Shown here: piece after piece, positions 3,720 to 24,142 of the stretch
How positions within the stretch are numbered: position 1 is the first letter of the stretch
How the letters are laid out: every line of letters starts with the position of its first letter
NCBI GenBank assembly: GCA_022703155.1
Contig: JAKLEH010000014.1
Coordinates: 1 to 32,066 of the forward strand
DNA length: 32,066 nt
Reading direction: 5' to 3'
DNA from: Patescibacteria group bacterium
Lineage (GTDB): Bacteria; Patescibacteriota; Patescibacteriia; 2-12-FULL-60-25
Position numbers and translations under genes: made by a program
The notes under the pieces: model-generated
What the model was told of the DNA's origin: nothing
What the model saw: only the letters and a program-made list of their open reading frames with translations
Database searches by the model: none

Positions 3720-3805
3720 TGGACGGTTGGTTTTGGTAAAATAAAAGTAGCAACTTGGACAAAGAACAACGTTCAACGAAGAAACCATCGAGTAGGAGGC
3801 TTAAG

Positions 3806-6442
3806 ATGGCCAATAACCGCGAAATCTCATTCTGGTCGCGCATCTGGCCGACGTTCCTGCTCTTGTCCGCAAGATTGGCATGGAGCGTCCCGGTCATGTT
3901 GGTGGCATTGTTACTCTCAGGTTCGGCGCAAGCCGCGCCCGCGGGGGAGTGCCCCAAAGTCATGGCCAATACGCCAAGCGGCGTGGCCGTCAGGATCAGC
4001 GACGGGTGCGACCTGTTCCGCGTGGTACGCGCTTATCCGCTCATCGACCCGCAAACGGGCCGGCCTTATCCCACGCAGATCCAACTGCGTTCCATCTTCG
4101 CGGCCAACCAGGACCATTACGAAGACGGCGTGTTCGTGCGCCGCAGCGTGATGCGCGTGTGCGCGCGCCCTGGCAAGCCAGATGCGTACGCGGATGACGA
4201 CGAAAAGAACAACGTCTGCAAAAACGGCGACGGCCTGACGTATTACTTCGGCATTCCGGGCGTGAAAATCCTCATTCCTTCGAAGCGCCACTTCACTCCG
4301 GCCGAAGAAGTCGAGTTGACCAGGAAGCAATTGGAGGCCGAACAGGCAGCCAAGGACGCGGCCGCGGCCAAACGCAAAGCCGAGGAGCGCGAAGAGCGGA
4401 GCGTCGAGGTTAACGCCCAAGCCGCAGCCCGGATCGACGAGCTGGAAAAAAAGCTTGATGCCGGCAACGCGCAAATCTCCGAAATGCGAACTCCGGCGGC
4501 GCGTGGCCGCTGGTTCTGGTTGTTGCTGGCCGGCATCCTCGGTTTGGCCGCGTACGGCGTGGGCAGCACCATGGTCGCGGTCCGCGCCAAACAGCCCAAG
4601 CCCATCATCGCGTCTGGCAGTTTCTATCCGGACGTGGGCGTGGCATCGGAAATCTTGAGCGAGGAAAACGAAAAACTGAAGCGTTCGTACGCCGAAGCTT
4701 TGAACAACCTCAAGACCGTGCGCAATTCCTTTGAAATGGCCCAAGCGCGCATCGCGCAGCTCGAAGGCGACGTGGCCGCGCAAACAATGCTGGCCCTCAC
4801 GCGCCTGAACGAGCGCGAAGACGCCAAGAAGGAATGCGCCAAACTCCGCGAGGAAAACTCGCGGCTCAAGGAAGAAGGCGATCGGCTGAACGGTATGTAT
4901 ATCCGTCAAGAAGCCGAACTCAAGGACCGCTTGCGTCCCTCCTTCCGTCCGCCGGGTATGGAAAGCGATGCCGAGCTGCGCAACAAGGTGCAGGACTTGC
5001 GCGAATCGGTGACTTCCCTCGAACAGGTACGGACGCGACAGGCCCAACTGTTACAGCAGGCCAACGTGGAACTCGACAGCTTGCGCCGCCGCGTTACGGC
5101 CATGGAGGCCATCAAGAAGGCCGTGGAGTTCGAACGCGACCAGGCCGTGGAGGCCTCGCGGACCGCACAGGCGCGTGTCGCCAAGTTGCGGTTGGTCAAG
5201 CCTTTGCCCGACTTGCTGTCGGACGAAGACGAGGCCCCGACCAACGTCATGGACATTCCCATGGTGGCGGTATCGGACAAACTTTCCCCAGAGACACCCG
5301 AAGGCGTTCGGCATTCGGTGCCGCCGCCTCCGATTTCCGCAGAGAAGACCGACAAGCAAGCCTTGCTCAAAGAAATGGCAACGCTCCTCGAAGACGCTTG
5401 GAACGTGAAGCGCGAACGCTTGGGCGCCAGGTCAACGCTGGACAGCCTGTCGCAAGCCGTCGCCCAGTTGCGCGAAAGGATCGAAACTTCGCGTGACGGA
5501 AACGAAGCGGTGGCCCTGATGGCGCGTCTCGAGGAGTTGGAAAAGAAAACCGAGGTCATGCGCCAAACCTGGGAAGCTTTGTGTCAAAGGGAACAGGACA
5601 TGGAGCGCTTGGTGCATTCCAACGGTTTCGATGAGTTCATGTTGCGCCGCCATTCGTGGCAACCAGACGAAACCGCGGCCGATCAGGTTGTGGCCGTCGC
5701 CGCTTACAAAGCCGCGACCAACGAACTGTTGAGCGTCATCGCTCCCGAAGACAGATTCGTGGCTTTGACCGACGAAATGGGCGCCTTGCGTCGGGAACGC
5801 AACCACTACCGCGACGGCATCCATGAATTGGCTTCGGTCGCGTATGCGGACGACGACGCGGATCGCGTCTTGTCCATGGCGCCGGCCGAAAAGGTGCGTC
5901 ACGTGGTGGGCACGCTCACGGACATGGGGCGCCAATGGCTCATGGCCGCCAAGCAAGCGGCGCAAAGCGTAACCGAAAGCGGACCGCCGGCCACGCCCCA
6001 GACCACTTCGGATTTCGTGCGCGGCGGCACCTTGGCCAGCCGTCAGTTTGCCACTTTGGATCTGCAGTCCCTGCAATCCCTACTTTCGGCCATACCGTCT
6101 TACTTGGTGGTGGACGCGGTCAAGAGCTGCATCCGCGAATGGCTGTACCGGATCATGCGGGAAGGCGAGCGTGTATATACGGTCTACACTATGGAAGACC
6201 TCCACGAGCTCAACGCTTTCCTGTGTTCGCCCTTGGTCGGCGGTTTGGGCATGGACCTCTCGACCACCATCGGCAAATCGGTGGAAGGCCACCAGGTACA
6301 GCACGCCTCCGATTCCGCCTGCAGGCATCCGTCGTTCAAGACTTCGTCACAGATTCCGGGCCGGTTTCCGCATACGGTCAGGCCGGGGAACGATGGCTTC
6401 AGTTTGGACGATGTGGCCGCGGGCCTGAAGCGGAGCACGTAA
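3806..6442 (+). CDS. Large membrane-anchored coiled-coil protein (paralogue 1)
   Basis: 878 residues, no known family recognised. ATG 3806 follows a strong AGGAGG (3794-3799). Order: signal peptide (about 20-45, ending SAQA|AP); an exported domain with four cysteines (C49, C68, C119, C138) and a layout vaguely like a LysM unit; a charged helix (163-228); one membrane span (236-258); a long coiled coil (about 275-470); a Pro-rich linker; a second coiled coil; and a C-terminal domain (about 748-878) with ERVYTVYTMEDLHELNAFLC and VQHASDSACRH. The gene at 9918-13325 shares the whole plan, the cysteine spacing and the C-terminal motif. The exported domain should face outward and the coiled coil inward. 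A structural, cell-envelope or polarity role is possible but not shown. Confidence 0.85.
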   Translation: MANNREISFWSRIWPTFLLLSARLAWSVPVMLVALLLSGSAQAAPAGECPKVMANTPSGVAVRISDGCDLFRVVRAYPLIDPQTGRPYPTQIQLRSIFAANQDHYEDGVFVRRSVMRVCARPGKPDAYADDDEKNNVCKNGDGLTYYFGIPGVKILIPSKRHFTPAEEVELTRKQLEAEQAAKDAAAAKRKAEEREERSVEVNAQAAARIDELEKKLDAGNAQISEMRTPAARGRWFWLLLAGILGLAAYGVGSTMVAVRAKQPKPIIASGSFYPDVGVASEILSEENEKLKRSYAEALNNLKTVRNSFEMAQARIAQLEGDVAAQTMLALTRLNEREDAKKECAKLREENSRLKEEGDRLNGMYIRQEAELKDRLRPSFRPPGMESDAELRNKVQDLRESVTSLEQVRTRQAQLLQQANVELDSLRRRVTAMEAIKKAVEFERDQAVEASRTAQARVAKLRLVKPLPDLLSDEDEAPTNVMDIPMVAVSDKLSPETPEGVRHSVPPPPISAEKTDKQALLKEMATLLEDAWNVKRERLGARSTLDSLSQAVAQLRERIETSRDGNEAVALMARLEELEKKTEVMRQTWEALCQREQDMERLVHSNGFDEFMLRRHSWQPDETAADQVVAVAAYKAATNELLSVIAPEDRFVALTDEMGALRRERNHYRDGIHELASVAYADDDADRVLSMAPAEKVRHVVGTLTDMGRQWLMAAKQAAQSVTESGPPATPQTTSDFVRGGTLASRQFATLDLQSLQSLLSAIPSYLVVDAVKSCIREWLYRIMREGERVYTVYTMEDLHELNAFLCSPLVGGLGMDLSTTIGKSVEGHQVQHASDSACRHPSFKTSSQIPGRFPHTVRPGNDGFSLDDVAAGLKRST

Positions 6443-9829: not shown

Positions 9830-9917
9830 ATTTTCGTCCGATAGGATATTGTAATACGGCTCCTTAGACAACAATTCAAAGCAACGTAGCGAAAATCGCC
9901 AACCAATGAGGAAGTCA

Positions 9918-12900
9918 ATGGCCACGTTCGCAATCGCAAGCAATTATGGTTTTTTGGCCAAACTGCCACGTTCCTTGTGGGGCATGGCGGTGGCGGCTTG
10001 CGTGATCATCACGCCCGTGTCCGCGCTGGCGCAGTCCAACGACGCGCCTTACGCGGCCACCGAGAAGCCGTGCTATACGACCATCAAAAAGACCGACGAA
10101 CAGTTAGTCTTGTCTTTCAGCCCGGATTGCGATCTGCGACGGTTGGCCCGCGCCTTCCCCATTTATGAGGACGGCAAGTCCATCTCCACGCAGCGCTATC
10201 TGCAATCCCTGTATGCCATGAACGGTCGTGACCGCACGGATGGCGCCAAGCCCACCGTGGGTCGCGGTTGCGTGCGTCCCGGCAAACCGTCTCCCGACGC
10301 CACGCCCGGCGAACTCGCGGCGTGTCCGGACGGATTGATGAACTACTACGCCACGCCGACCGACGATTCCATGGCGCGGATTATCGTGCCGTTCGCGCGC
10401 GCCCTGACCTATGAGGAAAAACTGGCCAAGCGCGTCAAGGAACTGGAAGCGGAAAACGCCGCGCTCAAAAAGGGCGAGGCGCCCGCGGCCAAGCAGGACA
10501 AGCCTGCCGACGACAAAGCATTGGCCGCGTCCAAAGCCGAGGCGGACAAGAAATTGTCCGTGGCCAACGCCGCCCTCGCGGCCGCCACGGCCGAGAATGA
10601 GCATCAGAGTTTCTGGCTGACCGTTTTCGTGCTGTTCGCGGCTATCAGCTCCGCCCTGGCGACGTTGTTCGCGATTCTGTGGTATCGGGCGGACAAGAAA
10701 CGCCCGGTCAAATACGTGGACCGCATCAAGGAAGTGGAAGTCGTCCGCGAAGTCCGCGTGGAAGGCGACTGGACCGAACGCGAAAAGAAGCTTACCGACG
10801 CGTTCGAGCAAGTCGTGCAGGACAAGCTGCGGGCCAAGGACAAGGAACTTACGAACGCCATGGCGCGCGCCAATACGTTCGCGGACGAACGCGACCAAGC
10901 GGTCGCGGCGGCCAAGCGGGGCAATGAGGAATTGGCCAAATTGCGCACGCAGACCGCGAACGACGCGCGCCGTATCGGTGAGCTCGAAAGCGAGCGCGAC
11001 CAGGCATTGGACACGGCGCAGAAGTCGCAGAAGATTCTGGCCGTGCGCCCGGCGTCCGATCCGTCCGTGGACATCCTCAAACAGAGGATTGCCCAACTGG
11101 AAGCGCAAGTTTCGCGTCCCGTTGAAGGCAGCGCGCATGGGCTGGCCGAAGACAAATTCGCAGCCGAAGCGCGCGCGTCGCAATTCGAGCGCGAGCTCAA
11201 GCAGACGACCGCCGAACGCGATGCGGCCCAGGCCGCATTGGACAGCTCGCAGGACGAAGTCAGGCGCCTTAAGGACGCCAACGAATTCCTGGCTTCGGAG
11301 AAGGAAGAACTGCTGTCACAGCGCAACCGCGCCTATCTCGAAAGGGACCGGGCCAAGGCTGAGACCGACAAGCAGTCAGACCGCGTCAAGGTGCTCGAAG
11401 GGCAATTGGCCCAGGTCACCCAAGAGCGAGACACGGCGCGTACCGGCAACCAAGACCTGCGCGACCAGCTCGAAACGTTCCGCGCCGACGCGACCAAGGT
11501 CAGATCCAGCATCGCGCCTCCCGTGCGCGCGCCGGCGACGGACGATAGCGAAGTCGTAGCCGCGCTCAAACGCGAGTTGGCCGATAAGGATAAGATGATC
11601 GAGGACTTTAAGTCCACGTTCAACTCCATGCGTCCGCCGCCGGCGGATAGCCTTTCCTCAGTGATTCCGCCGGGACCGCCTAAGGCCCCGGAAGGGGTCA
11701 TGGCGGGAACGGCGATTTCCTCAGTGACAAGCGGTAAGAGCGATGCGGAAATCACCGTAGCGCAAAACGACAACGACACGGACGAAGTGGTGGTGCTCGA
11801 GACGCTGCGCGACCATCTGTCGGCGCTGGGCCAGGCCCAACACCGGCACGCTGCGCTCAAAGCGCAGCTCGACAGCCTCGAGTCCATCGTACAGGTGGCC
11901 AAGCGGGCTTTGGAAGACGCCGCGCACGACGACGCGAAACGCCACGGCCAAGAACGGCTGTCGCGCGCCGAGGTGCGCGCCGCCGAAGTCCAAGTGCAGT
12001 GCGCCGCGGCCCAAGACGAACTCGAAGAATTGAAGCGTCTGGGGGCGAACCGGGGGTATGACGCGTTCCGCCTTGCGGACGCGCCCCAACCTTCGTCCGT
12101 CCAGTCTGAAGCCGCGCTGTCCGAAGGCTTGGCCAAGGCCATCGAGGATTGCCGGGACATCATCGTTCCGCCGACCTACCGTTGGCCCGCGCCGCAAATC
12201 GGTTCCGAGACTCAACACGAACGCGACGTGCTGTTCGAAGCGGCAAAGGAGTCCATCATCCTGATGGGCGCCGATCCCGCTGGGCTCAAGGACAAATCGG
12301 CCGGGGAAATCGCGAATCAGCTGAAGACCCGGGCGGTCAGCGTGGCGGCCACGGCATCGCACAACAGCCAAAGCTTCACCACGGCCCACGAACGCGCGCT
12401 GCAACTGGAAAGCGTTTTGGCCGAGGAGCGCGAAGCCGCGGCCAAGGTCCAGCAGTCATACAAGGCGCTGGAGCGCGAACATGAGCAGGCGGTGATGCAG
12501 AAGGTCGCTTTGCGCGACGCGCTGCTCAACGCCAATAAGCTCAAGCGCGAATTGCAGCGCCGCTTTGACCACGCGGTCGAGGAACGCCGCAATTTCCTAG
12601 AAGCGCAGACGCCGCGTACGTCCGAAGAGCGTTTGGCCCTGGCTGAATTGCGCGTGGCCGAAGCCGAACGCGAAACCGCGAACCTGCAATCCCAGCTCAG
12701 CCAGTTGTTGGGCGAAAACTCCGCTTACCGTGACCATTTCGAGGAGCTCGAAAGGGTTCGGGGTTCCGCGGGGCAGGAAATCGCGGCCAAGGAAGTTTGG
12801 GATCGGCAAAAGCAGGGCATTTACAATTGCTTGGCCGCGCTCGAACTAGGCCGTTCCGGCGACACGACGCCAGGGGCTCGCGCGGATGCGGAGCAGGCGG

Positions 12901-13325
12901 CGCTCAAACCGCCGGCCGTGCCCAAAGGCGACTTCCGAATCAAGGTCCAGCAGCGTTTGGCCTTGGCCGAATGGGGCGAGGTCCAATCGCTGTTCAAGAC
13001 CCTGGTCACGGACATGTCCTCGCGGCTCCAGCGCGGCGATCGGCTGGTGTACCTGGTGCAGACCGAAGAGGATCTGTATGGCTTGCACGAATTCCTGTGC
13101 ATGCCGCTCGAGTACGCGAGCACTGTGGACCGTAGCCTGATCGTCCGCGTGGACGAAGTACAGCGCGTCCACCACGCCGCCGATCCACAATGCCGTCGCC
13201 GCAACAACGACGAATCGGTTTCCGTGGTCCGTGCGACAAGGACGCTACGTCCCCAAGAACGGGCTTCCGAAACCCCGGAGGAACTCCAAGACCTGCTGGG
13301 CAACGGCGGCCGTTCGCCATCCTAA
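9918..13325 (+). CDS. Large membrane-anchored coiled-coil protein (paralogue 2)
   Basis: 1135 residues from ATG 9918 (AGGA five bases upstream; ATG 9906 is an alternative). Plan: signal peptide (about 15-39, PVSALAQ); exported domain with C52, C71, C118, C136; coiled linker (168-225); one membrane span (231-256); a very long coiled coil (about 265-560); Pro-rich linker (PPPADSLSS, IPPGPPKAPEG); further coiled coil to about 1000; C-terminal domain (about 1005-1135) with DRLVYLVQTEEDLYGLHEFLC and VHHAADPQCRR. The first two cysteines are 19 residues apart, exactly as in the protein at 3806-6442, and both share RPGKP after the third cysteine. The extra length lies in the coiled coils. No known family is recognised; a long spacer or scaffold tethered in the membrane is the simplest reading. 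Confidence 0.85.
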   Translation: MATFAIASNYGFLAKLPRSLWGMAVAACVIITPVSALAQSNDAPYAATEKPCYTTIKKTDEQLVLSFSPDCDLRRLARAFPIYEDGKSISTQRYLQSLYAMNGRDRTDGAKPTVGRGCVRPGKPSPDATPGELAACPDGLMNYYATPTDDSMARIIVPFARALTYEEKLAKRVKELEAENAALKKGEAPAAKQDKPADDKALAASKAEADKKLSVANAALAAATAENEHQSFWLTVFVLFAAISSALATLFAILWYRADKKRPVKYVDRIKEVEVVREVRVEGDWTEREKKLTDAFEQVVQDKLRAKDKELTNAMARANTFADERDQAVAAAKRGNEELAKLRTQTANDARRIGELESERDQALDTAQKSQKILAVRPASDPSVDILKQRIAQLEAQVSRPVEGSAHGLAEDKFAAEARASQFERELKQTTAERDAAQAALDSSQDEVRRLKDANEFLASEKEELLSQRNRAYLERDRAKAETDKQSDRVKVLEGQLAQVTQERDTARTGNQDLRDQLETFRADATKVRSSIAPPVRAPATDDSEVVAALKRELADKDKMIEDFKSTFNSMRPPPADSLSSVIPPGPPKAPEGVMAGTAISSVTSGKSDAEITVAQNDNDTDEVVVLETLRDHLSALGQAQHRHAALKAQLDSLESIVQVAKRALEDAAHDDAKRHGQERLSRAEVRAAEVQVQCAAAQDELEELKRLGANRGYDAFRLADAPQPSSVQSEAALSEGLAKAIEDCRDIIVPPTYRWPAPQIGSETQHERDVLFEAAKESIILMGADPAGLKDKSAGEIANQLKTRAVSVAATASHNSQSFTTAHERALQLESVLAEEREAAAKVQQSYKALEREHEQAVMQKVALRDALLNANKLKRELQRRFDHAVEERRNFLEAQTPRTSEERLALAELRVAEAERETANLQSQLSQLLGENSAYRDHFEELERVRGSAGQEIAAKEVWDRQKQGIYNCLAALELGRSGDTTPGARADAEQAALKPPAVPKGDFRIKVQQRLALAEWGEVQSLFKTLVTDMSSRLQRGDRLVYLVQTEEDLYGLHEFLCMPLEYASTVDRSLIVRVDEVQRVHHAADPQCRRRNNDESVSVVRATRTLRPQERASETPEELQDLLGNGGRSPS

Positions 13326-20729: not shown

Positions 20730-21293
20730 ATGGGCAGCCCCAGCGACATCAAGAAAGGCGCGGTCCTCATCCAGAACGGCGAGTTGTGGATCGTGACCGA
20801 ATTCCAACACGTGAACCCGGGCAAGGGCGCGGCTTTCGTGCGCACGCGCATCAAGAACGCCAAGACCGGCAAGACTCTCGAGGCCACGTACAAGACTTCG
20901 GAATCCGTGGAATTTGCGGATTTGGAATACCATGGCATGTCCTACCTGTACCACGAGGCCACGGGTTACGTATTCATGGACACCAAATCTTACGAACAAT
21001 ACACCATGGCCGACGAAGACGTGGGCGACCAGGCTAAATATCTGCGCGAAGGATTGGAAGTCCTCATCTCCGTGCACGAGGGCACGCCGGTGGCCATGCA
21101 ATTGCCCAAGAAGATGACCTTCGCCATCACGGAAACCATGCCCGCGGTCAAAGGCGACACGGCTAGCGGCAACGTCACAAAAGAAGCCAAGACTGACGGC
21201 GGCTTCATGGTCCAAGTACCGCTCTTCGTGAACCAAGGCGACCAAGTGGTCATCAACACGGACACCGGAGAATACGTGGAACGGGCTAAGTAG
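20730..21293 (+). CDS. efp: Translation elongation factor P
   Basis: 187 residues, full three-domain EF-P. The modified loop reads NPGKGAAF with K32 at the tip, the type lysylated by EpmA, and an EpmA-like gene lies at 16276-17400. Other landmarks: RTRIKNAKTGKTLEATYKTSE, EYHGMSYLYHEATGYVFMD, GTPVAMQLPKKMTFAITET, and the C-terminal GFMVQVPLFVNQGDQVVINT. EF-P rescues ribosomes stalled at polyproline, which fits a window with several Pro-rich proteins. No Shine-Dalgarno is obvious; cTCCTActATG precedes it. Confidence 0.96.
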   Translation: MGSPSDIKKGAVLIQNGELWIVTEFQHVNPGKGAAFVRTRIKNAKTGKTLEATYKTSESVEFADLEYHGMSYLYHEATGYVFMDTKSYEQYTMADEDVGDQAKYLREGLEVLISVHEGTPVAMQLPKKMTFAITETMPAVKGDTASGNVTKEAKTDGGFMVQVPLFVNQGDQVVINTDTGEYVERAK

Positions 21294-21313
21294 CGGCAGA
21301 TTGAATTTAATTA

Positions 21314-21342
21314 TAAAAATATCCGTTAAGCGGATATTTTTT
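21314..21342 (+). terminator. EF-P terminator
   Basis: Stem aaatatccg/cggatattt around loop ttaag (21326-21330), ending in a T run. Confidence 0.85.
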
Positions 21343-21414
21343 GTCATACTTTCAACAAAAATAATAAAATTGGGGGAAAATGTTTTTTGTTAAAATATCA
21401 ACAAAATATTTTTT

Positions 21415-21461
21415 GCCTTAATTAAGCCAGAGTTGACTGAGCGTTAAAAAAATGCTATACT
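21415..21461 (+). promoter_or_regulatory. Strong promoter with upstream palindrome for the large RNA
   Basis: TTGACT (21433-21438), 17-base spacer, TATACT (21456-21461). Four bases before the -35 box lies GCCTTAATTAAGCC (21415-21428), one mismatch from the palindrome found three times behind the promoter at 28386-28414. The DNA upstream is very AT-rich, like an UP element. Confidence 0.75.
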
Positions 21462-21467
21462 GTTTTT

Positions 21468-22132
21468 GTCAGTTGGAAAAGAGAAAGTGGAAGGAGAGGG
21501 TTGGGAAGCTCTTTTTAAAATGCGACGTGATGGATTTCTATCTCAACGATGGGAATCCATCTGAGGACCATCCGAAACAACCATACGCGAAGTTCCAAAG
21601 GCCCCAAAACCAAGTGGAAACAAGCCATGGTTGAAAAAATGAGGATGATCCCGCAAATTCGGGCCTGAAAACCCGAAACCTAAGTCGCCACAACGCTCAT
21701 AAGCCGCGAACGATCTGCGAAACAAAGAACTCGAATCGTCGAGGAAGCTCGCAAGAGAACGAAACGCAGAAAACATGAGAAACAAAAAACAGCGCAAGCT
21801 GGAAATAAAGTTCTCAATCGCCATAAAAAAGCGAAAAGAAAGGAAGGAAATCGGGCTAAATGCCCGATGATCGCCTGACGCCCCGGAAAAAGAACTCGAA
21901 AAAAACGAGGACGCTCGCAAGAGAAAAATCCGAGGAAAAATTACGCCGAAATATCCAAAGGGCAACCGAGGAAGAAAAAGCGTAATCGCGAAAGCGGAAA
22001 AAAGGAAAGGAAAACCGAGTCAAAAGCTCGGACAACAAACCGCCTTAATCGAACGTGCGGAGCGTAATGAGCGACTTTAGGTCAAAGAGCCCACAAAAAC
22101 CAAAATAAAAAAAGGTTCGAGTGGCTCTTTTT
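21468..22132 (+). ncRNA. Candidate large structured non-coding RNA (about 660 nt)
   Basis: No open frame here has a ribosome site and start. Stable hairpins are strung together by A-rich linkers: gatggatt/aatccatc (21529-21561); ttcggg/cccgaa (21658-21677); ctcga/tcgag (21730-21743); atcgggc/gcccgat (21850-21868); ccgag/ctcgg near 22015-22032. Several carry GNRA loops: ctc-gcaa-gag twice (about 21748 and 21914), cagc-gcaa-gctg (about 21790-21801) and cgc-gaaa-gcg (about 21987). A 36-base motif starting aaagaactcgaa is duplicated at 21724-21759 and 21889-21925. A strong promoter and a terminator frame it. It lacks the signatures of RNase P RNA, tmRNA and SRP RNA that I could look for. A decayed Lys-rich gene is the alternative. 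Confidence 0.6.
22084..22132 (+). terminator. Terminator of the large RNA
   Basis: Arms aaagagcccac (22084-22094) and gtggctcttt (22121-22130), one bulge, A-rich loop, T run to 22132. Confidence 0.7.
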
Positions 22133-22178
22133 CGTATAGTGAATTTTGTATTGTAATGGCCTGACTGGCTTTTTTTGT

Positions 22179-23990
22179 TTATGCGTACCACTTTGCCTGT
22201 TGGTTGTAGAGTTCCGCGTATTTGCCGTTCCGCTTGATCAGTTCCTCATGCGATCCGCTTTCCGCCAGTTTGCCGTCCGTGAACACGAAGATGCGGTCCG
22301 CGCGACGCACGGTCGAAAAACGATGCGAGATGAAAATCAGTCCGCGACCGCCAGCGGTTTCCAGCAGATTTTCGAAAAATCTCATTTCCGCGTTGGAGTC
22401 CATGGCCGAGGTGGGTTCGTCGAAACCCAAGATGCGTCCGCCGTGGACCAAGGCGCGCGCGATGGTCAGGCGTTGGCGCTGTCCGCCCGAGACTTGGTGC
22501 GGGACGATGCCCGGCGGCGCGGCCCAATCGCCCAAAAAAGTTCTGTAGCGTTCGGGCAATGATTCGATGACCGTATCCGCGCCCGCGACATTGACGCTCT
22601 CTGGGAGCGAAAGCCCGAGTCCGCGTTTGCCGTTAGGCGCGCCGTACAGCAGGTTGTCGCGCACGAAGTCCTGGTAAATTTTCGCGTCTTGCAGCATCAG
22701 ATGCAACGCTTCGCGCCACGCCTCGGGTTTATATTCCGAGAGCGGTTTGCCGTTGAGGGTTATTTTGCCTTTGGTTGGTTGGATGAGGCCGGAAAGCAGG
22801 CGCAGAAGCGTGGATTTGCCTGCGCCGTTCTCGCCAACGAACGCCAAATGTTCGCCTTCGCGCAAAACCATGGACACGTCGGAAATGGCGTCGCGTTTGG
22901 ATCCGGGATAGCGGTATGAGACTTTTTCGAGTTTGATTTCCAACTTGCCGGACGGCACGGCCAATCCGTCCTGATTTTCCGGCTTGTATTTGAGCAGACG
23001 GTTCATGTACGCCAGGATGTCCATGTCCGCCCACAGCGCGGTCACGGCTCCGGATATGCCGTTCAACGCGTCGCCCATGAGGCCAAAAAGGTTAAGCGCC
23101 ACGTACAGCGTGGCCAACGCCGCAGGTCCGGCAAAAGCCGACCGGCCCAAGAAGACGATGACCACGGCATAGGCGGCTATGTGCAAGACGGCCAAGACGC
23201 CGCGGTTGCGCGCGCTCATCACGGCCATGTCGCGGAAGCGCCGCAACACGTTGATGCGCGCCGAGTCGCGTTTGGCGAGCACGGTTTTTTCCGCGCCCAG
23301 CAGGCGCAGCTCGCGGAATTCGTCCGTGTTCAGGAACAGGTAGCGCGTGTATTCGAGCCGTCGGCCTTCGAGCGAATTCCAGGTCGAAGCCCAAACTTCC
23401 TTACGTGATTCAAACCATAGGTTGCAGGCTTGCAGCAGCGCGTCGGCCAAAGCCACGACCGTGACCCACCACGGCGCGGCCAAGGCCAAAGCCAAAGTGC
23501 CCGTGAATTTTAGGACCGACCGGATCAGCCATTCGGTGCGGTCGGCCAAGCGGTTCAAACGCCACAGGTCTTCGCGCACAAAATCCAAACTTCGTCTGAC
23601 TTCGGGTTTGTTGAGCGCTTCCGGGTCCAGTTTTGAGAGGTGCGAGTATATGGCCTGCTCGGACGCGAGCGACGACGAGCGCGAAAACAGGTCGTCCAAG
23701 CGCGAGTAAGTGATTTCCGTCACCAGATGCCGCAAGCCGTACGATACGATGACCACGCCAATCAAAAACGGCGCGCGTTCGGCTTGGCCCGAAGCGATGG
23801 CCGATATGAATTGCGCGAAAAAGTAAACCTCCAAGGGCTGCAAAAAAGCGCCCAACACTATGAGCCCAAAGCGCAAAGTGGTAAGAGCCGGATGCGCGCG
23901 CCAAATTATTCCGATAAAACGGACATAGGCGCGGAATTTGTCCTTTGCCGGAAACCTCAAGACCTGTTTTTTTGCATCGTTGCCCTCCAT
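22179..23990 (-). CDS. ABC transporter, fused membrane and ATPase domains (type I exporter half)
   Basis: 603 residues from ATG 23990. Residues 20-330 hold the transmembrane domain (about six spans, e.g. LRFGLIVLGAFLQPLEVYFF, FTGTLALALAAPWWVTVVAL, HIAAYAVVIVFLGRS). Residues about 345-600 hold the nucleotide-binding domain: Walker A GENGAGKST, signature VSGGQRQR, Walker B ILGFDEPTSAMD and H-loop ISHRFST. It should work as a homodimer exporting a lipid, peptide or drug; the substrate is unknown. A TACAAT -10 box lies just before the start with a poor -35 box. It is downstream of tRNA-Leu but separated from it by a terminator. Confidence 0.93.
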   Translation of the reverse strand: MEGNDAKKQVLRFPAKDKFRAYVRFIGIIWRAHPALTTLRFGLIVLGAFLQPLEVYFFAQFISAIASGQAERAPFLIGVVIVSYGLRHLVTEITYSRLDDLFSRSSSLASEQAIYSHLSKLDPEALNKPEVRRSLDFVREDLWRLNRLADRTEWLIRSVLKFTGTLALALAAPWWVTVVALADALLQACNLWFESRKEVWASTWNSLEGRRLEYTRYLFLNTDEFRELRLLGAEKTVLAKRDSARINVLRRFRDMAVMSARNRGVLAVLHIAAYAVVIVFLGRSAFAGPAALATLYVALNLFGLMGDALNGISGAVTALWADMDILAYMNRLLKYKPENQDGLAVPSGKLEIKLEKVSYRYPGSKRDAISDVSMVLREGEHLAFVGENGAGKSTLLRLLSGLIQPTKGKITLNGKPLSEYKPEAWREALHLMLQDAKIYQDFVRDNLLYGAPNGKRGLGLSLPESVNVAGADTVIESLPERYRTFLGDWAAPPGIVPHQVSGGQRQRLTIARALVHGGRILGFDEPTSAMDSNAEMRFFENLLETAGGRGLIFISHRFSTVRRADRIFVFTDGKLAESGSHEELIKRNGKYAELYNQQAKWYA

Positions 23991-24026
23991 GGGCCGTATT
24001 GTAGCATGTTTTGACCGATTCGATAC

Positions 24027-24048
24027 GAAAAAAATCCCTTTCGGGATG
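24027..24048 (-). terminator. Terminator of tRNA-Leu
   Basis: Minus strand stem atccc-gaaa-gggat (24047-24034) followed by a T run. Confidence 0.75.
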
Positions 24049-24055
24049 TTTTTTA

Positions 24056-24142
24056 TGGTGCGCAAGGTGGGACTTGAACCCACAAGCCCTTGCGGGCACT
24101 GGCTCCTAAGGCCAGCGCGTATACCAGTTCCGCCACTTGCGC
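24056..24142 (-). tRNA. tRNA-Leu (UAG)
   Basis: Acceptor GCGCAAG/CTTGCGC with discriminator A and encoded CCA. Anticodon stem CTGGC/GCCAG with loop CTTAGGA gives anticodon TAG. Long variable arm (GCCC-GCAA-GGGC), as expected for a class II tRNA. Confidence 0.95.

Follow-up and report, generated by a model that had tools for sequence, protein, structure and literature searches.

Introduction

Large structured RNAs whose function is unknown are a small group, and the familiar examples emerged from comparisons of numerous homologues. Among the closest described systems, GOLLD and ROOL have their genes in phages or prophages, frequently close to tRNA islands, and together with OLE they form compact or oligomeric particles, as RNA-only homo-oligomers (PMC12286853).

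In this report we describe a candidate new large structured RNA of this known general kind, which is unusual in its internal duplication and for which no relatives could be detected. It resembles GOLLD, ROOL and OLE, whose function is poorly understood too, in being several hundred nucleotides long and multi-branched, with GNRA or A-rich loops suited to A-minor contacts. However, this likeness, proposed in an initial annotation of the DNA, is one of style only, as none of their Rfam models match. The candidate also differs from them in its lack of known relatives and in its internal tandem duplication of a four-arm module. Unlike GOLLD and ROOL, it is located in a chromosomal interval between housekeeping genes, not in a phage or a tRNA island. 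With RNase P RNA and tmRNA it would share the properties of a large, stable, structured RNA of comparable size with its own gene, but both of these are encoded elsewhere in the genome (contigs C4 and C10) and their models do not match here. Finally, it recalls the decoys of the CsrB/RsmZ type, in that it has its own intergenic gene in which hairpins and GGA motifs recur, but differs from them in its elaborate closed domain architecture and in belonging to a genome without CsrA.

The locus and its surroundings

The window, i.e., the whole stretch of DNA that was analysed (32,066 nucleotides), is a single contig (G000:C6) of a 1.23-Mb draft genome of Candidatus Uhrbacteria, a tiny bacterium that is uncultured. 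The relatives of its EF-P at 73-84% identity belong to Patescibacteria MAGs, and those that are named are Candidatus Uhrbacteria and "Parcubacteria group". Elsewhere in the window, positions 3755-6442 and 9906-13325 (both plus strand) encode long paralogous proteins, with 29% identity over 269 aligned N-terminal positions and a common C-terminal block, which are probably exported or membrane-anchored and contain long coiled coils.

The RNA locus is surrounded by housekeeping genes, with two isolated tRNAs at a distance of 2-3 kb. From 5' to 3', efp and its terminator are followed by AT-rich repeats, a promoter-like site, a stretch of about 665 nt that holds no credible gene, and finally a terminator hairpin:

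20730-21293, plus strand: efp, the upstream neighbour
21334-21432, plus strand: AT-rich region upstream of the promoter, in which a 27-nt repeat occurs in three imperfect copies (ATATTTTTTGTCAT.../ATGTTTTTTGTTAA.../ATATTTTTTGCCTT...; repeat family D1, 67-81% identity)
21433-21461, plus strand: putative sigma-70-type promoter, TTGACT-17-TATACT, with TG before the -10 box (extended -10), 10/12 consensus matches
21468-22136, plus strand: inferred non-coding transcript of about 665 nt (z of the fold between -6.5 and -7.3; neither a reading frame nor a Pfam match)
22085-22133, plus strand: predicted intrinsic terminator, AAAGAGCC...GGCTCTTTTT (-14.6 kcal/mol, z -3.6)
22179-24083, minus strand: ABC-transporter gene, the downstream neighbour, convergent to the RNA locus

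Both transcription signals had been noted before. The promoter is a consensus match only, modestly above chance, with 1.6 such sites expected per kb, and it would place the start of transcription near 21468. The terminator hairpin folds well and is followed by T's, and its A-rich loop is unusually long. Taken together, these signals point to transcription of an RNA of about 665 nt. Two of the three 27-nt repeats, which lie directly upstream of the promoter, contain TTTTGT...ACAAAA inverted repeats, and the region could possibly serve as an UP element, an operator or a site for a regulator.

The interval between efp and the ABC-transporter gene is a variable spot among the sister species, whose oriented efp loci were compared (L063, L066, L068, L070 and L091; also L064 and L065) and hold other small genes or none. 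A small-protein gene after efp is common to G003, G005 and G002, a different, Cys-rich small gene on the minus strand is common to G004 and G008, and G006 and G007 have nothing in this interval, where the window genome has the RNA instead.

Predicted fold and architecture

The plus strand (671 nt) folds at -203.9 kcal/mol, with a z of -6.5 against 20 dinucleotide shuffles and of -7.3 against 100. The two domains are each significant, the 5' domain (21521-21677) with z -5.4 and the 3' domain (21678-22082) with z -6.0, and sub-stretches folded alone adopt about the same structure as within the whole RNA. The predicted elements are the following:

21493-21516, plus strand: 5' hairpin GGAGAGGGTT/AGCTCTTTTT with the GNRA-type loop GGGA (mean pair probability 0.93)
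21521-21655, plus strand: 5' domain, which TGCG/CGCA closes, with a 14-bp hairpin (21529-21561) followed by a segmented stem (21565-21651) (fold prediction)
21658-21677, plus strand: linker hairpin TTCGGG/CCCGAA (mean pair probability 0.95)
21678-21714, plus strand: 5' strand of the closing ladder of the 3' domain (25 bp in five segments)
22048-22082, plus strand: 3' strand of the closing ladder (fold prediction)

In the closing ladder, whose helices span up to 405 nt, the mean pair probability per helix is 0.73-1.00. The stems, GNRA loops and A-rich linkers on which the initial annotation was based hold against quantitative comparison: five GNRA tetraloops cap stems of at least three pairs, vs a mean of 0.27 (at most 2) in shuffles, and A accounts for 66% of the unpaired bases. 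Furthermore, positions 21701-22100 are the most A-over-T skewed 400-nt segment in 1.14 Mb of this genome; the next most skewed segments examined lie within open frames and fold weakly. In the sister genome G001, of which about 88% was read, no stretch combines such an A-rich, T-poor skew with a comparable fold. Stability beyond that of shuffles, promoter-like and terminator sites of its own and the lack of a reading frame thus occur together at this locus, as is the case for large structured non-coding RNAs.

A tandem module duplication with preserved pairing

The 3' domain consists of a four-arm module of about 165 nt in two tandem copies, held by the 25-bp closing ladder; this internal duplication is ancient and accounts for half of the RNA. 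Its parts are:

21714-21877, plus strand: module copy 1, arms a-d (fold prediction, structure-guided alignment). Arm a, TCTGCG/CGCAGA with hairpins CTCGA/TCGAG and CTC-GCAA-GAG; arm b, TGAGAA/TTCTCA with CAGC-GCAA-GCTG; arm c, TCGC/GCGA; arm d, ATCGGGC/GCCCGAT
21882-22046, plus strand: module copy 2, four arms in the order of copy 1 (covariance model of copy 1, alignment test, pair counts). Arm a, CCCGGA/TCCGaGG with CTCG/CGAG and CTC-GCAA-GAG; arm b, TTACGC/GCGTAA with GG-GCAA-CC; arm c, CGC-GAAA-GCG; arm d, CCGAGT/GCTCGG inside AAGG/CCTT
21740-21773, plus strand: first copy of the "36-base duplication" (repeat family D2, 79% identity)
21906-21939, plus strand: second copy of the same repeat, 166 nt downstream of the first

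The 36-base duplication had been reported as such, and it is real but understated, being the best-preserved portion of the longer module duplication. Several comparisons establish the relation between the two modules. A covariance model built from 21711-21881 alone matches the adjacent 21879-22046, in register, with a genome-wide E of 3e-4, and in a search of 41 genomes up to E 1 the copy-1 model retrieves itself, copy 2 and two weak matches in or around coding DNA. When the modules are aligned by sequence only, none of 2000 dinucleotide shuffles scores as high as the real pair (global z 5.0, local z 6.4).

Whether the pairs themselves were kept can be read from two pairing tests. In the structure-free alignment, 27 of the 33 pairs of the copy-1 structure still pair in copy 2, vs 12.3 with permuted 3' letters (0/20,000 permutations reach 27) and at most 15 with slid partners; only two pairs are changed on both sides, because an alignment of this type favours identities. 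In the structure-guided alignment, 93.6% of the cells are paired, and the 39 pairs compared comprise 21 that are identical, 11 changed on both sides, two changed on one side and five that fail in one copy, while sliding the partners by 1-3 columns lowers pairing to 23-38% and double changes to 0-2. The latter test is biased toward pairing, since the fold of each copy came from a prediction on that copy itself, and the structure-free test is far less so. Taken together, the two tests would be best read as selection on RNA structure since the duplication. This covariation evidence lies between two internal copies and not across species.

Searches for relatives

The initial annotation had failed to match the RNA to ROOL, GOLLD or OLE, or to RNase P RNA, tmRNA or SRP RNA, and had proposed a search with Rfam covariance models. 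This search was run on a 951-nt stretch (21300-22250) at gathering and at permissive thresholds (E up to 10) and gave no meaningful match to any family. The gene for RNase P RNA (RF00010) is located at G000:C4:14958-15420 and its model does not match at the RNA locus; that for tmRNA (RF00023, tRNA-like ends) is located at G000:C10:17152-17547, and ARAGORN finds none at the RNA locus. Likewise, the Rfam models of group I and II introns and their relatives are without a match.

Nucleotide searches (blastn) in 8 sister species, 41 genomes of the family and 381 of the class revealed no credible relative, and neither phage nor plasmid records contained one; the matches in all of these sets are only 25-59 nt long, and the seven that were opened are coding DNA, a terminator or low-complexity sequence. 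Covariance models of the 5' domain (R1), of module 1 (R2) and of both modules (R3) were used on a scope that covered either domain in the family genomes and, for the module, 381 genomes of the class and 380 of the phylum (about 760 Patescibacteria). They found no credible relative, nor did the 5' domain model find any on its own. Their matches in G008, G032, G085 and G486 lie in or around coding DNA or at a clpP terminator, and the match in G576 (E 0.021) is a poor alignment. Neither some 85,000 prokaryotic genomes nor the viral contigs contain an exact 19-base pattern that both modules share, two further patterns gave nothing in viral contigs, and a second copy of the RNA was not found elsewhere in its own genome. 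As a control, the RNase P RNA of this genome retrieves its counterparts in the sister species (E 1e-43 to 1e-52) and extends to further families. No homologue having been found in any of these searches, the RNA would be lineage-specific, newly acquired or too fast-evolving to recognise.

Alternative explanations

The alternative that survives best, although we regard it as unlikely, is a decoy of the CsrB/RsmZ kind, in which repeated purine motifs in and between hairpins would sequester an RNA-binding regulator or the ribosomal anti-Shine-Dalgarno. The composition of the RNA is consistent with this, with 22 GGA motifs vs 15.6 in shuffles (9/500 reach 22) and six GAGGA motifs vs 1.3 (0/500), duplicated modules would suit a decoy with several sites, and one strong Shine-Dalgarno-like AAGGAG occurs at 21491. 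It is made unlikely by the absence of CsrA (PF02599), which was found in 0/38 genomes (this one and 37 related ones) while controls were detected. Moreover, the GGA motifs show no preference for the unpaired state (unpaired fraction 0.37 vs 0.47 for all bases), and RNAs of the CsrB type consist of simple hairpins in a row and have no closing ladder of 400 nt.

Less probable still is a degraded remnant of a mobile element or an intron, whose hairpins were kept by chance. The variability of the efp-ABC interval, with two different small genes or nothing in the sister species, indicates a place that accepts new DNA. However, pairing has been kept between the modules despite their divergence, a promoter and a terminator frame the entire stretch, which decay would not maintain, and the genome holds no second copy that could be found.

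That the RNA is a very divergent member of GOLLD, ROOL, OLE, raiA, HEARO or an intron appears very unlikely. The similarity of style extends to size, GNRA loops, A-rich junctions and the multi-branched architecture, but none of these families is among the Rfam matches to the 951-nt stretch even at E 10, the locus lies outside any phage, prophage or tRNA island, and the translations of the neighbouring genes include no recognised reverse transcriptase or homing endonuclease.

We give even less credence to an mRNA that encodes a small basic protein or peptides, in which the hairpins would be incidental. One frame does hold extended Lys/Arg/Glu-rich runs, and Shine-Dalgarno-like sites precede one frame of 5 codons and one of 41, but every frame of the transcript region contains stops and the Pfam search of the open reading frames of the locus is without a match. 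The longest plus-strand reading frame (60 aa) starts just upstream of the -10 box and reads through it, and a 140-aa frame on the minus strand is the Phe/Ser-rich complement of A-rich DNA, which agrees with the earlier statement that these roughly 660 nt contain no credible gene. The duplication provides a further argument: the distance between matching repeat segments of the two modules varies along their length (163, 165 and 166 nt), so that no reading frame carries over from one copy to the other. Pairing between the copies is maintained. As far as can be seen, the locus is not a protein gene.

Least probable of all is a structure at the DNA level, such as a single-stranded recombination or replication site, since, even though the opposite strand also folds well (z -4.9), the plus strand folds better (z -6.5) and has A in its loops and GNRA tetraloops, and the translations of the neighbouring reading frames include no recognised recombinase.

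A probable structured RNA and its possible mode of action

A new large structured RNA, suggested as a possibility by the initial annotation, is by far the best reading of the locus, because of the strong fold, the GNRA loops, the long-range closing helix, the promoter and terminator of its own, the conservation at the RNA level between the copies and the lack of both a reading frame and an Rfam match. It is highly probable that this stretch of about 665 nt encodes a structured RNA. There is good support for the secondary structure, for the internal duplication, for pairing that has been preserved from copy to copy and for the lack of relatives that could be detected in the data searched; transcription, the tertiary packing, the partner and the role as scaffold or decoy are what we infer from them.

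In the proposed explanation, 21468-22136 would be transcribed from its own promoter and end at its own terminator, and the RNA would fold into a 5' domain and a 3' domain, the latter closed by the 25-bp ladder around the two tandem four-arm modules. The A-rich junctions and GNRA loops would probably pack these modules into a compact, pseudo-two-fold tertiary fold. In presenting the same GCAA-capped hairpins twice, the duplicated modules would offer two equivalent binding surfaces, by which the RNA may act as a scaffold or decoy for a protein, a component of the ribosome or further molecules of the same RNA, possibly in a compact or oligomeric particle as with GOLLD, ROOL and OLE. Since the downstream gene is convergent and there is no downstream target gene, action in trans is favoured, and a free-standing folded RNA of this type, with its duplicated modules, would be best explained as a trans-acting scaffold or decoy.

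To this explanation as a whole, a discrete, trans-acting, non-coding structural RNA that serves as a scaffold or decoy with duplicated surfaces, we give an even chance; the scaffold or decoy mechanism itself, for which the argument is the architecture, we place slightly below that. More tentatively, and with the odds against it, the RNA might be the first member of a new class of large bacterial RNAs, with a core derived from tandem duplication of a four-arm module and an internally pseudo-symmetric fold that, in a bacterium of reduced genome, assembles into a particle of RNA alone or of RNA and protein.

The interest of the locus lies in an orphan RNA of a reduced genome that carries internal evidence of its structural conservation, in the form of two diverged module copies with the same arms. 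If expressed, it would show that large RNAs of elaborate build can be specific to one lineage and can enlarge by duplicating a module, and it lends itself readily to probing or cryo-EM, with a symmetry prediction built in.

Two other long stretches without 100-aa reading frames were observed in the same genome, L135:919-1553 (G000:C23) and L166:3815-4201 (G000:C54). They have no Rfam match and fold with z of about -10 and -8, respectively (12 shuffles), and the former holds a long inverted repeat.
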